Assembly: GCF_018271995.1 (NCBI RefSeq)
Contig: NZ_JAGUCO010000001.1
Coordinates: 558,001 to 622,000 of the forward strand
Source: Carboxylicivirga linearis
Lineage (GTDB): Bacteria; Bacteroidota; Bacteroidia; Bacteroidales; Marinilabiliaceae
Direction of reading: 5' to 3'
Length of the DNA stretch: 64,000 nucleotides
This document shows positions 4,595 through 37,493 of the stretch, in pieces. The notes beneath the pieces were generated by a model. That model did not search any database. It was not told where the DNA came from and saw only the letters and a list, made by a program, of their open reading frames with translations. The translations under genes were made by a program, and so were the position numbers. The first letter of the stretch is position 1; each line of letters begins with the position of its first letter.

Positions 4595-4992
4595 AAATGA
4601 AAAGTAAAACATCAAATACATCTTCTGTTACCACTATTTTTTATGATGGTTGGTGCAGATTGTGTTCTGGTGTGGTGGGTGTATTGATGAAAACAAAATC
4701 GGGTAGAAGGTTTACTTATGTGCCCATACAGCAAATTGATGATTATATTGATGATTCATTAGCAACTCCAAATGCAATAGATGGAAATGAGATTGTTGTC
4801 TATGTGAACCAAAAGTTGGTAAAAGGAGCAGATGCTGTACTTCTTATTTTAAATAATATGGGAGGTGTTTATAAGTTGCTTTCCAAGGTGTTAAATATTC
4901 TTCCTTCGCGATGGCTGAATGGTTTATATAGCTATATGGCCAATAACAGATACAGGTGGTTTGGTAAAAGAACCTCTTGTGAAATAGGTTAA
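4585..4992 (+). CDS. DCC-family (DUF393) thiol-disulfide oxidoreductase-like protein
   Basis: The 135-residue protein has the family signature near the N-terminus, FYDGWCRLC (D-x-x-C-x-x-C), the source of the name DCC. It ends in the usual NRYRWFGKRTSCE block. Such proteins have a thioredoxin-like fold, but few have defined substrates. The ATG at 4585 overlaps the preceding small gene; ATG 4597 is an alternative that removes four residues. It converges with the DUF4924 gene, whose stop overlaps this one by 4 bp. The family is secure and the function open. Confidence 0.87.
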   Translation: MSLKMKSKTSNTSSVTTIFYDGWCRLCSGVVGVLMKTKSGRRFTYVPIQQIDDYIDDSLATPNAIDGNEIVVYVNQKLVKGADAVLLILNNMGGVYKLLSKVLNILPSRWLNGLYSYMANNRYRWFGKRTSCEIG

Positions 4993-5531
4993 AGCTCTAA
5001 CTTCCCCATTTCATCCTGTTTATATTTTTTTGCCAATGTAGCTAAAAACTTACTTATTGATTTGACAGCAAGATCAGTTTGTGGACTTACCTCTTGTTTT
5101 TTTAGTTTAAGCAGAAAAGTGCTGTAAATGGCTGTTAGGCAAATCTCAATATCATTGGATAATTTCTGTCCCGACTTTTGATCAAATTCTCGGATGGTTG
5201 GTAATACGCTGTTGAATAAGTGTTGGTAGGTAACTTCATTGGGAGCTTTCATCAACTTCATATGTAAATGATTGATATCATTAACGGTGTTAGTGTTAAT
5301 CTGGAGATGACCGGATGATTGTTTATTCTCTAATTGCATCATTTCCGTCAGGTTAGCCCACCAATCTCTGATTTCCAATAGAGTATCTTCCGATTGATTG
5401 TAACTGGGTATGATGTTTTTATCAATGTTGGCCATGCTTACATTATTGGCTCTGATTAAATCCTCAATCTGCCACATGTAAAGAACATATTCAATAATGT
5501 TTTCTTGTTTCTTTTGGTTTGCTACAATCAT
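4989..5531 (-). CDS. DUF4924 family protein
   Basis: The 180-residue protein begins MIVANQKKQENIIEYVLYMW, the conserved opening of DUF4924, a Bacteroidota-specific family of helical proteins with no established role. No signal peptide or transmembrane helix is seen. It is the last gene of a leftward run (pth, S4 protein, DUF4924) and lies 13 bp from the S4 gene, so it is probably co-transcribed with pth. Family assignment is from the N-terminal block and length. Confidence 0.85.
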   Translation of the reverse strand: MIVANQKKQENIIEYVLYMWQIEDLIRANNVSMANIDKNIIPSYNQSEDTLLEIRDWWANLTEMMQLENKQSSGHLQINTNTVNDINHLHMKLMKAPNEVTYQHLFNSVLPTIREFDQKSGQKLSNDIEICLTAIYSTFLLKLKKQEVSPQTDLAVKSISKFLATLAKKYKQDEMGKLEL

Positions 5532-7460: not shown

Positions 7461-8399
7461 TTATAATAAGAATTGATTGCTTATTGATTGATAATTATAT
7501 ACTTTTTCTATTGTATCGGCAAAAAGCTGTGCTACAGAAAGAACTTTAATCTTCGAGCTTTGCTTTTTTAAAGGTAAAGAATCGGTTACATACAATTCTT
7601 TTAATGATGAGTTCTCGATACGCTCATAAGCTGGACCTGATAGAACAGCATGTGTTGTAAAGGCACGAACACTTCTTGCACCTGCCTCCATCATCATGTC
7701 GGCTGCTTTGGTCATTGTGCCTGCTGTATCAATCATGTCATCAACAATAATTACGTTTTTGTCGGTAACATCACCAATGATCCTCATTGAGTCAACCACA
7801 TTGGCTTTTGAACGCGATTTATGACAAATAACCATTGGTGTTTCCAAAAACTTAGCATATGTATTGGCTCTTTTAGTACCTCCCACATCCGGAGAAGCAA
7901 TAACCAAATTTTCAAGGTTCATATGCTTAATGTGCGGAACAAAAATAGATGAAGCATACAAATGATCAACCGGGATATCAAAGAATCCCTGGATTTGATC
8001 GGCATGTAAATCCATTGTTATTACACGGTCAACACCTGCTGTCATTAGCATATCGGCTACAAGTTTAGCCCCAATTGATACACGAGGTTGGTCTTTTCTG
8101 TCCTGACGGGCATATCCGAAATAAGGCATAACTGCCACAATTTTATAGGCAGAAGCTCTTTTAGCTGCATCAACCAACATTAATAATTCCATTAAATTAT
8201 CTGCAGGTGGAAATGTTGATTGGATGATGAATACATGAGATCCGCGAACGGTCTCCTCGTAAGCTGTGGCAAATTCGCCGTCACTAAATCGTAAGCAATT
8301 GTGACTTCCCAGTTCGCGACCCGAACTAAGGCTGATCTTTTCTGCCAGATATTTCGTAGCTGTTCCCGAGAATATCTTAATTGGAGCTTTCGGTGGCAT
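7461..8399 (-). CDS. prs: Ribose-phosphate pyrophosphokinase
   Basis: Makes PRPP from ribose 5-phosphate and ATP. PRPP is a precursor for the trp and his pathways encoded later in this window. The 312 residues contain the ATP-binding region (YFGYARQDRK), the flexible catalytic loop with MDLHADQIQGFFDIP, and the PRPP-binding loop VDDMIDTAGT. Length and motifs are those of class I bacterial enzymes. A -7 box TACCTTTG lies 48-55 bp upstream. The gene is monocistronic or leads into rplY. Confidence 0.96.
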   Translation of the reverse strand: MPPKAPIKIFSGTATKYLAEKISLSSGRELGSHNCLRFSDGEFATAYEETVRGSHVFIIQSTFPPADNLMELLMLVDAAKRASAYKIVAVMPYFGYARQDRKDQPRVSIGAKLVADMLMTAGVDRVITMDLHADQIQGFFDIPVDHLYASSIFVPHIKHMNLENLVIASPDVGGTKRANTYAKFLETPMVICHKSRSKANVVDSMRIIGDVTDKNVIIVDDMIDTAGTMTKAADMMMEAGARSVRAFTTHAVLSGPAYERIENSSLKELYVTDSLPLKKQSSKIKVLSVAQLFADTIEKVYNYQSISNQFLL

Positions 8400-32916: not shown

Positions 32917-33549
32917 ATGAATAATTTAATGACACAAACCAAAAATTCGCAGTCGCAGATTAGTTCTGCAGAGGCCCTTAAAATGTTGATTGATGGAAAC
33001 AGGCGATTTGTTGAGAGCAATGTATTGAACCGTGATTTTATACAACAGATTAATGAAACATCGGATGCTCAGTACCCGTTTGCTGCAATTGTAAGTTGCA
33101 TCGACTCACGTATACCAACAGAAATTGTTTTTGATCAGGGAATTGGTGATGTTTTCAATGTTAGAATTGCAGGTAATATTGTGAATGAAGATATTTTAGG
33201 TAGTCTTGAATTTGCCTGTAAAATAAGTGGATCGAAGTTAATAGTTGTGATGGGCCACACAAACTGTGGCGCCATTAAAGGTGCGTGCGATGATGCCCAA
33301 CTGGGTAATTTATCTGTTTTGCTTAAGAAAATAAAACCAGCAGTAGATAGTATTCACACCAACTTTGGTGTTGACCGTAGTTCCGAGAATCTCACATTTG
33401 TAAATAAAGTTGCAGAAAAAAATGTAGAAATAACTATCCAAAAACTACTGGATGACAGTAAAGTATTGAAAGAGTTATACGAGAGTGGAGAGATTGATAT
33501 TGTAGGAGCCATGTATGATGTAAATACCGGAAAAGTGAAATTTTCATAG
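32917..33549 (+). CDS. Beta-class carbonic anhydrase
   Basis: The 210-residue enzyme has the zinc motif CIDSR (C and D-R dyad) and HTNCG (H and C), plus the GNIVNEDILGSLEFA block. It interconverts CO2 and bicarbonate. There is no signal peptide, so it is cytoplasmic. It is coupled to the SulP gene (15 bp) and, with it, forms a probable bicarbonate-handling operon under the divergent TetR regulator. Met1 or Met5 may be the start. Confidence 0.94.
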   Translation: MNNLMTQTKNSQSQISSAEALKMLIDGNRRFVESNVLNRDFIQQINETSDAQYPFAAIVSCIDSRIPTEIVFDQGIGDVFNVRIAGNIVNEDILGSLEFACKISGSKLIVVMGHTNCGAIKGACDDAQLGNLSVLLKKIKPAVDSIHTNFGVDRSSENLTFVNKVAEKNVEITIQKLLDDSKVLKELYESGEIDIVGAMYDVNTGKVKFS

Positions 33550-33599
33550 TTTTCTCATTATTATATAGTAGCCATAATAATAGTGTTTTAGGTTGATTG

Positions 33600-33637
33600 A
33601 AAAAGCTTGTGGTTAATACTGCAGGCTTTTTGGTTTT
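33600..33637 (+). terminator. Intrinsic terminator of the SulP-carbonic anhydrase operon
   Basis: Stem aaaaagc (33600-33606) / gcttttt (33625-33631), extended inward by wobble pairs, followed by a T-rich tail. Confidence 0.7.
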
Positions 33638-33736
33638 TTACGCTTTTATAGCCACAATTACATATTGCAAACAAAAGAATTGGTGATGGACAATAACTTT
33701 TGAGATTATTAAAGTAATATGATGGAACATTTTGCT

Positions 33737-33944
33737 TAGCGAGCAACTATTTCACTTAGGATTGTAACAATTTTACATAGGCGAGAAAGATATTTATTAG
33801 AGCGAGTCGTAAATAAACCCAGGCGAGGCACAAATATGATAGAGCGAGCTAAGCTCGCCTACCTATATACATAGCTCGCTTAAGTAAATAGGCAGCTCGC
33901 CTGATCAAAAACATAGCTCGCCAATATAAAAATTACACTCGCCT
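33737..33944. repeat. Mirror-symmetric array of (A/T)GGCGAG boxes at exact 21-bp spacing
   Basis: GCGAG starts at 33739, 33781, 33802, 33823 and 33844; a degenerate copy sits in phase at 33760. After a central dyad GCGAGCT-A-AGCTCGC (33844-33858) the complement CTCGC starts at 33854, 33875, 33896, 33917 and 33938. Every interval is 21 bp (42 where the degenerate copy lies). The spacers are 14 bp, AT-rich and not conserved. The two arms are symmetric about base 33851. No ORF covers it. The pattern suggests a cooperative protein-binding site; its role is unknown. Confidence 0.9.
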
Positions 33945-34145
33945 TATTATATTAGTGCTATAATTTTTAATTCTGATGCAATTCGTTACTAATATCCAGA
34001 GTTCGACAGTAATTTTAGGTTCATAACAGAGATTGATCTATATCATAAAAATGCATTTGTGAATGATATTTTATCATTAAATTGCAGCTCTAATAATGAA
34101 TTTAAAAGTTTTTTGAGGTGCTTCGGATAAAAATGGAATCGATTG

Positions 34146-34178
34146 TTTGGAATATTCAAAATATATTTCTCATATTTG
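34146..34178 (+). promoter_or_regulatory. Promoter of the trp operon
   Basis: TTTG at 34146-34149 and CATATTTG at 34171-34178 (one base off TAnnTTTG) are separated by 21 bases. The predicted RNA start is near 34185, about 15 bases before the leader-peptide ATG. Confidence 0.5.
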
Positions 34179-34199
34179 CATCTCAACAACAAGGAAATA

Positions 34200-34262
34200 A
34201 TGAATTTGATTACAAAAAATACAGGCTGGTGGCACCATTTAATACTTTCAACAAGGAGTTGA
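34200..34262 (+). CDS. trpL: trp operon leader peptide (tandem Trp codons)
   Basis: A 20-codon ORF reads MNLITKNTGWWHHLILSTRS. The two adjacent Trp codons are at 34227-34232 and two His codons follow. AAGGAA lies 5 bases upstream as a ribosome-binding site. A strong terminator follows 31 bases after the stop, then trpE. This is the classic arrangement of ribosome-mediated attenuation: stalling at scarce Trp-tRNA prevents termination. Confidence 0.88.
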   Translation: MNLITKNTGWWHHLILSTRS

Positions 34263-34333
34263 GGGCCATAGCCGTATACAGTATAACGAACACAAGAAGG
34301 CTTACCTAACTCCAGGTAAGCCTTCTTTTTTTT
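34224..34333 (+). terminator. trp attenuator (terminator with competing antiterminator)
   Basis: Terminator: perfect 14-bp stem aagaaggcttacct (34294-34307) / aggtaagccttctt (34314-34327) with a 6-base loop and a T-run to 34333. Antiterminator: ggagttgagg (34255-34264) can pair with cctaactcc (34305-34313), taking the stem's top and loop. A pre-emptor stem pairs the Trp-codon segment ggctggtggc (34224-34233) with gccatagcc (34265-34273). The antiterminator strand includes the leader stop codon, so a ribosome finishing the peptide would block it. Confidence 0.85.
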
Positions 34334-34358
34334 AATTAAATTGTGAAAAACTAAACCA

Positions 34359-35774
34359 ATGGAACTTAAAAATATAACATGCAAAGCAACTCCCATACCG
34401 GCCAATGTAGCTGATGTTACCACCCCGGTTAGCTTGTACCTGAAATTGCGCGATGAATATCCTAATACTATCTTATTAGAGAGTAGTGATTATCACGGAA
34501 ATACCAATTCCATGTCATTTATTTGCTTTAATCCAACCTACGATTTTATTGCAGATAAAGGCAAAGTTTTATTAGGTGAGGCGCATAAAGAGCTGGAGAG
34601 CATTACCATTGATAAGGATAATAATGTACCGCAGTTGCTGGATGAATTTATTAAGAGTTTCAAGGTGAGGATGGACGATTGCCCGGTTAAAGTGAATGGT
34701 TTATTCGGATACACAACCTTTGATGCGGTGCAATATTTCGATACTTTGGATTTTGAGTCTCCTGTTTTAGATGCGCATAAAATTCCTGAAATGCGCTACA
34801 CTTTTTACAAGTATATTATTGCATTTAACCACTTTAGTAATCAGTTGTATTTGATCGAAAACCTAAACGAAGGTGAAGAATCGGCTGCCAACGAATTGAT
34901 TGATACTTTTTATAACAGAGCTATACCGGCTTTCAACTTCGAACCAGCGAATAACGAAACTTCGAACCTGACCAACGAAGAATACATGGCGATGGTGACC
35001 AAAGGAAAAGAACACTGCTTTAGAGGTGACGTTTTCCAGATTGTGTTATCGCGTCAGTTCAAACAATCGTTTAAAGGCGATGAATTTAATGTATACCGTG
35101 CCTTACGAAACATTAATCCATCGCCTTATTTATTTTATTTCGATTACGGATCGTATAAGATATTCGGGTCGTCGCCTGAGGCTCAATTAGTGATTCAAAA
35201 CAATGAGGCAACTATCAATCCTATTGCAGGAACGTTCAAACGTACCGGTGATGATGTGAAAGATCAGGAATTGGCCATTAAGCTAAGTGAGGATGAAAAG
35301 GAAAATGCCGAACATGTGATGTTGGTTGATCTGGCCCGAAACGATTTAAGTCGCAACTGCGAGAAGGTAAAAGTAAATACGTATAAAGAGGTTCAGTATT
35401 ACTCGCATGTGTTGCATTTGGTGTCGGATGTAAGCGGACAGCTTCAGGAAGGATCCATTGCTGCTCGTGTGATGGCTGATACTTTTCCTGCAGGTACTTT
35501 ATCCGGTGCTCCTAAATACAAGGCTATGCAGTTGATTGATTCCATCGAAAATCAAAATCGTGGTTATTACGGCGGTTGCATCGGTAATATTGGTCTTGAC
35601 GGAAGCTTTAATCAAGCAATTATGATTCGCTCGTTTCTGAGTAAAAACAATACACTTTTCTACCAGGCCGGTGCTGGTGTAGTAAGCGAATCAAAAGAAG
35701 AAAACGAGTTGGCTGAAGTCAATAATAAACTCGGAGCATTGAAAAAAGCCATTGAAATGGCACAAGATTTTTAA
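34359..35774 (+). CDS. trpE: Anthranilate synthase component I
   Basis: Chorismate-using subunit for the first step of Trp synthesis. The 471 residues contain LLESSDYHGNTNSMSFI (the LLES motif of Trp feedback binding), FQIVLSRQF, GSSPEAQL, PIAGTFKR and LVDLARNDLSR. The C-terminal GAGVVSESKEENELAE is complete. It begins 25 bases after the attenuator T-run and is 48 bp before trpG. Confidence 0.96.
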   Translation: MELKNITCKATPIPANVADVTTPVSLYLKLRDEYPNTILLESSDYHGNTNSMSFICFNPTYDFIADKGKVLLGEAHKELESITIDKDNNVPQLLDEFIKSFKVRMDDCPVKVNGLFGYTTFDAVQYFDTLDFESPVLDAHKIPEMRYTFYKYIIAFNHFSNQLYLIENLNEGEESAANELIDTFYNRAIPAFNFEPANNETSNLTNEEYMAMVTKGKEHCFRGDVFQIVLSRQFKQSFKGDEFNVYRALRNINPSPYLFYFDYGSYKIFGSSPEAQLVIQNNEATINPIAGTFKRTGDDVKDQELAIKLSEDEKENAEHVMLVDLARNDLSRNCEKVKVNTYKEVQYYSHVLHLVSDVSGQLQEGSIAARVMADTFPAGTLSGAPKYKAMQLIDSIENQNRGYYGGCIGNIGLDGSFNQAIMIRSFLSKNNTLFYQAGAGVVSESKEENELAEVNNKLGALKKAIEMAQDF

Positions 35775-36497: not shown

Positions 36498-37493
36498 ATG
36501 ATTAAAACCATATTAAAAGAGTTACTCAACTATAAAACATTATCGCGTAGTCAGGCCAAAGAAATGTTGGTGAATATTGCTGCCGAAAGATATAATCAGT
36601 CGGAGGTGGTTACCTTCCTTACGGTGTTTATGATGCGCCCTGTTACGGTTGATGAGCTTTCGGGATTCAGAGATGCTTTATTGGAGCTGTGTCACAGAGT
36701 TGATCTTTCGGAGTTTAACACTATTGATATGTGCGGTACTGGTGGCGATGGTAAAAATACCTTTAATGTTTCCACTCTTTCGTCATTGATTGTTGCCGGA
36801 GCAGGTGCTAAAGTAGCCAAGCATGGTAACTATGGTGTTTCTTCTTCATGCGGATCATCCAATGTGATGGAACATTTGGGCTATCAGTTTACATCGGAAG
36901 AAGATAAATTGAAAGAGCAGCTTGATAAAGCCAATATTTGTTTCTTGCATGCACCTATGTTTCACCCTGCCATGAAAGCTGTCGGACCTATTCGCAGAGA
37001 GTTGGGGCTAAAAACGTTCTTTAATATGTTGGGACCTCTGGTGAATCCATCCTTTCCACAGAATCAGCTGGTAGGTGTTTTTAGTCTGGAGCTAGCGCGG
37101 ATCTATCAATACATATTTCAACAAGGCAACAAGAATTATAGCATAATTCATTCATTGGATGGTTACGATGAAATATCATTGACCGGCGACTTTAAAGCTA
37201 TCACGCAAGATGGCGAACAGTTGTATTCACCTAATGACTTTGGAATGGAAGCGGTTAAGCCGGAAGATATCTTTGGTGGAGATACGGTGCCGGAAGCTGC
37301 TGATATCTTTGTTAAAGTGTTGGAAGGTAACGGAACCAAGGCTCAGAATAGCGTAGTGATTGCCAATGCCGCATCGGCTCTTCAATGTTATTATCCCGAA
37401 AGAAGTCTGGAGCAGTGTATCGAGGATGCCAAAAAATCTTTAAGTGATGGTAAAGCTGCCGAAGTATTGTCAACCCTGTTGAGCCTGTCATAA
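36498..37493 (+). CDS. trpD: Anthranilate phosphoribosyltransferase
   Basis: Transfers PRPP to anthranilate. The 331 residues contain the PRPP-binding CGTGGDGKNTFNVST, KHGNYGVSSSCGSSNVMEHLG, HPAMKAVGPIRRELGLKTFFN and NPLVNP-like GPLVNPSFPQNQLVGV. It is followed by trpC after 9 bp. Confidence 0.96.
   Translation: MIKTILKELLNYKTLSRSQAKEMLVNIAAERYNQSEVVTFLTVFMMRPVTVDELSGFRDALLELCHRVDLSEFNTIDMCGTGGDGKNTFNVSTLSSLIVAGAGAKVAKHGNYGVSSSCGSSNVMEHLGYQFTSEEDKLKEQLDKANICFLHAPMFHPAMKAVGPIRRELGLKTFFNMLGPLVNPSFPQNQLVGVFSLELARIYQYIFQQGNKNYSIIHSLDGYDEISLTGDFKAITQDGEQLYSPNDFGMEAVKPEDIFGGDTVPEAADIFVKVLEGNGTKAQNSVVIANAASALQCYYPERSLEQCIEDAKKSLSDGKAAEVLSTLLSLS

Follow-up and report, generated by a model that had tools for sequence, protein, structure and literature searches.

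A mirror array of GCGAG boxes at two-turn steps in Carboxylicivirga linearis, most likely one of a large class of intergenic repeats

The window, a 64,000-nucleotide stretch of the Carboxylicivirga linearis genome, holds a mirror-symmetric array of short boxes in the noncoding DNA between the gene end at 33549 and the gene start at 34359 (Table 1). The array ends about 260 bp ahead of a probable trp leader peptide. The Trp-Trp-His-His reading frame (34200–34262) and the strong terminator-like hairpin that follows it upstream of trpE (34294–34327) have similar sequences in congeners, and from their sequence they probably form a trp attenuator in this genus.

Table 1. The mirror array and neighbouring features, with positions in the window.
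Feature	Position	Strand	Remarks
Carbonic anhydrase family gene	32917..33549	+	context
Hairpin, intrinsic-terminator-like, 3' of carbonic anhydrase gene	33600..33631	+	array starts about 100 bp further on
Mirror array, whole	33739..33942	.	10 good boxes and 1 degenerate
Array, left arm	33739..33848	+	GCGAG at 33739, 33781, 33802, 33823, 33844; 33760 degenerate; 21-bp step
Degenerate in-phase box, GATTG	33760..33764	+	
Array, central dyad GCGAGCTAAGCTCGC	33844..33858	.	box-to-box step 10 bp, one helical turn
Array, right arm	33854..33942	-	CTCGC at 33854, 33875, 33896, 33917, 33938; 21-bp step
Probable trp leader peptide, Trp-Trp-His-His	34200..34262	+	similar reading frames in congeners; own sequence reading
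Hairpin, terminator-like, before trpE; probable attenuator	34294..34327	+	
trpE, anthranilate synthase component I	34359..35774	+	best model trpE_most, below its curated cut-off

Direct reading and a script agree on all ten GCGAG and CTCGC starts. Every step within an arm is 21 bp and the junction step, at GCGAGCTAAGCTCGC, is 10 bp, which places the boxes of both arms on nearly one face of the helix. An earlier note on this DNA had given the same box coordinates, the 21-bp steps with exact two-turn phasing, the degenerate in-phase box at 33760 and the meeting of the arms at a GCGAG/CTCGC dyad, and all of these were borne out. With up to two mismatches allowed, pairs of GGCGAG-like boxes 21 bp apart occur seven times in the window against 0.81 expected, a count that none of 100 shuffles equalled. 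No other signal in the window, at periods of 14 to 30 bp, scores as high as the array (five-unit periodicity score 87.8; runner-up, 64.9), and across five Markov copies the maxima for periods of 19–23 bp were 44–50. Weaker 21-bp peaks at 7679, 18073 and 24737 were set aside, as all lie inside open reading frames. Tandem Repeats Finder reports the right-arm part only (33852–33922; period 21, 3.4 copies, 70% matches). Over the 11 units of the array, mean identity is 0.95 in the five box columns (0.91–1.00 for each, the exact box being present in 10 of the 11 units) and 0.58 in the other columns; this conservation of the box columns was reached in none of 5,000 simulations of uniform decay from one ancestral unit.

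The position next to trp had suggested a link that did not survive comparison with other genomes. We label the genome of the window G000 and its congeners G001, G006, G007, G009, G011 and G013; C denotes a contig and L a fetched stretch. In the DNA read ahead of trpE in 13 congeners, G001 and G013 (the latter on the minus strand) among them, no GCGAG array occurs, which rules out trp regulation as the role of the array. The gene neighbouring the trp region in G001 and G006 differs from that in G000. Upstream of trp, G001 has a weak 22-bp AACCC array (score 56.8), too weak to build on.

The search for periodic arrays that the earlier note had proposed found them in G000, G001, G007 and Draconibacterium mangrovi (Marinilabiliales). 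A second GCGAG mirror array of G000 (array 2, C115:282274–282414) has an ortholog in G001, which carries a further one at C1:2293291 (G001_2293) upstream of a gene that we take to be lepA; G007 has two (G007_C1 and G007_C76) and D. mangrovi one. The D. mangrovi array came from a scan of named genomes with at least 120 stretches, of which the 80 listed were tested for array extension; G+C content was below 0.5 in 2 of 120 (L113 and L156). The junction is exactly 10 bp in the window array, in array 2 and its G001 ortholog, in G001_2293 and in D. mangrovi, which amount to four independent arrays, but 27 and 26 bp in the two G007 arrays. The latter (L083, 8560–8812; L084, 8935–9192) have a longer word, roughly TAGCGAGCAATTTC. 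By hand count, 49 of the 52 steps in six GCGAG mirror arrays are exactly 21 bp and the other three, all in G007_C1, are 20 bp; the count takes in in-phase degenerate boxes and leaves out two stray box matches of G007_C76. In each of the four GCGAG arrays tested, the box columns are better conserved than uniform decay would leave them.

A widely conserved GCGAG element is ruled out by its near-absence from other genomes. With up to two mismatches, the 10-bp-junction pattern was found among 393 genomes drawn from the order in G000 only (a reversed control, in three), and the exact pattern among 71 family genomes in G000 and G001 only (controls, none). No exact GCGAG pair at 21 bp occurs in G006, although its trpE is 96% identical to that of G000, the same closeness as G001. 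Two-box matches are weak alone (6 and 8 real ones in G000 against 5 and 2 for the reversed control), and 12 of the 14 real ones fall in two arrays. Across G000, G001, G006 and G007 the exact dyad GCGAGN5CTCGC occurs in three places, two of them array centres and the third in a frame open across all 501 bases fetched, with no isolated operator-like copy. The gap between convergent amidase-like and typA-like genes (L278, L281 and L277) holds a GCGAG mirror array in G007 and a small reading frame, which we assume may be a diacylglycerol kinase, in G009 and G011. A 21-bp-like array of ATTATTT words (L087, about 4780–5090; G001:C1:3932848) was a chance find made through a GCGAG pair.

Arrays of this step are not confined to one word. 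A scan for arrays irrespective of word covered about 2.06 Mb of G000, G001 and G007, and a period spectrum (8–65 bp) was computed over 221 kb of noncoding DNA of three congeners, with two rRNA regions masked. The 21-bp period yielded 20 matches with z above 6 (best z, 14.5) and the 22-bp period 7 (best, 12.3); further ones came at the multiples 42 bp (10), 41 bp (3) and 63 bp (5). There were none at 31 or 32 bp, seven weak ones at 8 bp (best, 6.9) and 0–4 at other periods; a 1-Mb Markov null gave 0 or 1 match per period. In all, there are about 25 intergenic arrays with a period of 21 or 22 bp and many different boxes, and besides multiples of 21 no period is comparably strong. The stretches of G000, G001 and G007 were partly picked for GCGAG arrays, which biases 5 of the 25; the other 20 were not known beforehand. 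Array words include TTTGGCAAAT, CCCCWAGGGG, GCC with GGC, TATTATTT, A5-core-T5 and TTTCATAACTATGGAAA, and G000 by itself has arrays with GCGAG, TTTGGCAAAT, TATTATTT, A5-core-T5 and others. Many other arrays consist of loop-less palindromic boxes, for example CCCCTAGGGG and TGTCATCATGACA, a form that suits recognition of double-stranded DNA. The box-over-spacer contrast is significant for several arrays of the class, but not for all (G001_2518: P 0.31). At G007:C1:320990 (L351 from 990) and G007:C1:283693 (L349 from 3693), two palindromic words alternate with a 41-bp double step.

These arrays prefer gaps between convergent genes. The scan gave 27 matches at 21 or 22 bp whose z was 6 or more, from which we dropped two 21-bp matches of G001 (2092716 and 2719580) that read as tRNA-like sequence and one at a contig edge. 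The remaining 24 divide into 12 arrays in convergent gaps, 11 in codirectional gaps and 1 in a divergent gap, whereas the respective shares of intergenic bases are 12.8%, 61% and 26%; genes were called by longest reading frame, which makes the context approximate. The convergent excess has P 1e-5 and the divergent deficit P 0.006. With an orthologous pair and an adjacent pair each counted once, the figures are 11 of 22 convergent (P 3e-5) and 1 of 22 divergent (P 0.011). Most likely, the window array belongs to a large and rapidly renewed class of intergenic repeats in the genus, in which the word varies and the two-turn step (21 or 22 bp) is kept.

As to what the step is for, our best explanation, which we hold tentatively, is that the array seats a chain of a DNA-binding protein at two-turn steps and is quickly renewed. 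Each array would seat identical subunits of a candidate DNA-binding protein along one helix face. In the mirror type, a dimer would occupy the central one-turn dyad, and further subunits would polymerise outwards from it in both directions, head to tail, with one box per two turns. Such a chain could act locally at gene 3' ends as a nucleoprotein block or boundary, for example where converging transcription meets. We counted in favour of this reading the 49 of 52 exact 21-bp steps despite nearly random spacers (aligned noncoding DNA of G000 and G001 has 0.17 indel events per substitution), the spectrum peak at 21 and 22 bp, the 10-bp junction in four independent arrays, the conservation of box columns, the loop-less palindromic boxes, which are like dimer sites, and the convergent-gap excess with its divergent-gap deficit. 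The differing boxes within one genome argue against a single sequence-specific protein. The box drift in array 2 described below, the lack of isolated dyads, a G006 genome without a GCGAG pair, the 26- and 27-bp junctions of G007 and the weak contrast of G001_2518 argue against the protein chain itself, and a preference for convergent gaps would be equally expected if such DNA were merely tolerated there.

Plain satellite turnover ranks second, close behind the protein filament, and is a possibility that we take seriously, if with some doubt. Slippage and hairpin-templated template switching would copy units in tandem and inverted; the product, without function, would be tolerated at gene 3' ends and decay, and the two-turn step would come from copying, not selection. 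Comparison of the sister species G000 and G001 speaks for this. Arrays at corresponding places share a 22-bp period and differ in word in two pairs: C115:74269 (ATCAGGACA core) with 2343713 (GTCTCACGTGTA core), and C115:246175 with 2518048. The intervals between the syntenic blocks differ, with 0.4 to 1.6 kb extra in one genome, and the positional correspondence of each pair is likely. In a third pair (C115:363193 and 2638971) the periods are 21 and 23 bp. Presence at loci is patchy, too: C115:164946 and G001 2593542 have no counterpart, and opposite each of them the other genome has a gap of about 50 bp. The avoidance of divergent promoter gaps is likewise in keeping with satellite turnover.

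The only orthologous pair that we found, array 2 in G000 and G001, points the same way. Its boxes changed at 6 of 40 positions and its spacers at 13 of 101, without an indel; changes are as frequent in boxes as in spacers, so that the boxes appear unprotected and the length kept, with the proviso that 19 substitutions lead one to expect only about 3 indels. The earlier note had held that boxes are conserved over spacers, which stands within the window array (0.95 against 0.58) and fails between these relatives; drift of boxes as fast as spacers, which it had named as evidence against its reading, is what this pair displays, for array 2 and not for the window array. Since changes are denser in array 2 (19 of 141) than in its flanks (3 of 90; P 0.011), hypermutation of the array was considered as an explanation; it was dropped because mean noncoding divergence in aligned G000 and G001 stretches is 19% (4522 of 23456). 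At its centre, the G001 ortholog forms a long perfect palindrome, as expected from template switching, whereas the G000 copy is imperfect there. Against satellite turnover, uniform decay does not produce the contrast between box columns and the rest, spacers change in sequence yet seldom in length, and copying offers no obvious reason for one period across many sequences.

A bolder version of the protein-filament idea, which we consider unlikely, is a cellular system with a two-turn ruler that builds or maintains arrays at gene 3' ends. The word would co-evolve with it and be replaced array by array, as in centromere-like drive, and the mirror type would be the seed of a bidirectional protein filament.

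Less likely again is an RNA element, in which the transcribed arms would pair into an extended rod, box against box at 21-nt intervals, and serve as a 3'-UTR stabiliser, a bidirectional terminator or a protein-binding RNA. Pairing of the arms as RNA can occur, contrary to the earlier note, and the window array folds better than dinucleotide shuffles (z −4.8 and −3.8), though the inverted boxes alone account for this pairing: with the spacers alone shuffled, z is about −1, and the spacers add nothing. Array 2 folds more strongly (z −7.0). Against a null with intact boxes and shuffled spacers, folding still exceeded chance in array 2, its G001 ortholog, G001_2293 and G007_C1 (z −2.7 to −9.7), which points to extra pairing in their spacers; it did so weakly in D. 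mangrovi (z −1.7 and −2.4) and not at all in G007_C76 (z 0.5 and 0.1). By hand reading, three of the six core-box changes in the array 2 pair put T for C opposite a G and would thus keep a G-U pair, a point also in favour of an RNA. Against it, six arrays of the class fold no better than shuffles (z −0.7 to +1.4, from 40 mononucleotide shuffles of each strand), many arrays have box palindromes that lack a loop, the window array lies about 100 bp past the upstream terminator-like hairpin, and an Rfam search of 33000–34700 gave no family at gathering score, its three sub-threshold matches all lying outside the array. Owing to the loop-less boxes, the six non-folding arrays and the sufficiency of the boxes for the pairing of the window array, we rate a DNA-level reading over RNA.

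Very improbable is a length-measuring insertion that, by analogy with CRISPR adaptation, would duplicate a short box and set a spacer of fixed length next to it, the array growing away from the dyad or towards it: the short constant box, the variable spacers of near-constant length and G001_2293, whose two outermost left boxes are degenerate and central boxes intact, would fit, but no spacer source was found (0 of 15 full 16-nt matches in 0.86 Mb of genome), 11-mer sharing by spacers in the same 0.86 Mb is no better than in shuffles (P 0.19), and some spacers are alike within and between arrays. CRISPR arrays themselves alternate constant and variable parts at constant length, as the array does, with direct repeats of about 21 nt or more; here the repeat is 5–7 bp, not a long direct repeat, and the arms are inverted.

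Bacterial satellites of 22 and 44 nt are reportedly the subject of a paper in the Journal of Bacteriology in 2020. That no described element resembles the array, as the earlier note had it, was too strong, since relevant parts of PMC8161180 describe noncoding 20–21-nt satellites with a conserved short word. There, Subirana and Messeguer report satellites of constant length and variable sequence from Bacillus and other bacteria, most of which have a characteristic short word in all repeats, and suggest small RNAs or a protein whose polymerisation on DNA depends on repeats of constant size; in a 52-nt class, short words and their reverse often occur within one repeat (PMC8161180). Noncoding bacterial satellites of 20–22 nt also appear in the relevant parts of another paper by these authors (PMC6749651). 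A mirror array is not described in the relevant parts of PMC8161180. The window array shares with the 20–22-nt satellites a constant 21-bp size, a noncoding position, several same-length families in one genome (G000) and a conserved short word. It is not head-to-tail throughout, being inverted at 33844–33858, which makes this a kinship of kind rather than membership, as the authors may not require that arrangement. The arrays also differ in their near-random spacers at exact length, their mirror form around a one-turn dyad, their shortness (about 100–350 bp) and the different words that sister species carry in corresponding places.

STAR-like elements of Staphylococcus aureus and other CRISPR-like false arrays are similar in having GC-rich short repeats with variable spacers that can be mistaken for CRISPRs, according to the relevant parts of PMC5294841, which give the STAR-like signature as T[G/A/T]TGTTG[G/T]GGCCC[C/A]. 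The array lacks this signature (the window has one match with two mismatches, at 37025, against 2.76 expected) and differs from these elements, as far as they are described there, in its two-turn step and inverted arms. REP and BIME palindromes resemble the arrays in being intergenic dyad elements with a tendency to sit at the 3' ends of genes. PMC3733652 describes REPs as palindromic repeats of 20–40 bp in high copy, whereas each array here has its own word at a fixed phase.

Within the literature searched, which included few subscription journals and was available in part, no established function was found for bacterial satellites of constant length and variable sequence, and the mirror layout around a one-turn dyad, spacers that combine near-random sequence with near-exact length, and word replacement between sister species look new. 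In the short arrays of this genus, length can be cleanly told apart from word, the step being nearly exact, the spacers nearly random and the word different between sister species at corresponding places; the reader of the two-turn step thereby becomes experimentally addressable.

Beyond the genus, one clear array, with a 20-bp step, was seen in 50.7 kb of noncoding DNA of 20 relatives in the family, along with one match each at 21 and 22 bp, neither clean; the array step may differ by genus. In one family relative (G017; L358, from about 4567 onwards), CCCGGG boxes follow 20-bp steps in DNA treated as noncoding. A Prevotellaceae MAG (L113, 5545 onwards) and a Tannerella MAG (L125, 1 onwards) hold near-perfect 21-bp tandem units with the palindromic words CTCTCGCGAGAG and GGCGAGACGYCTCGC.
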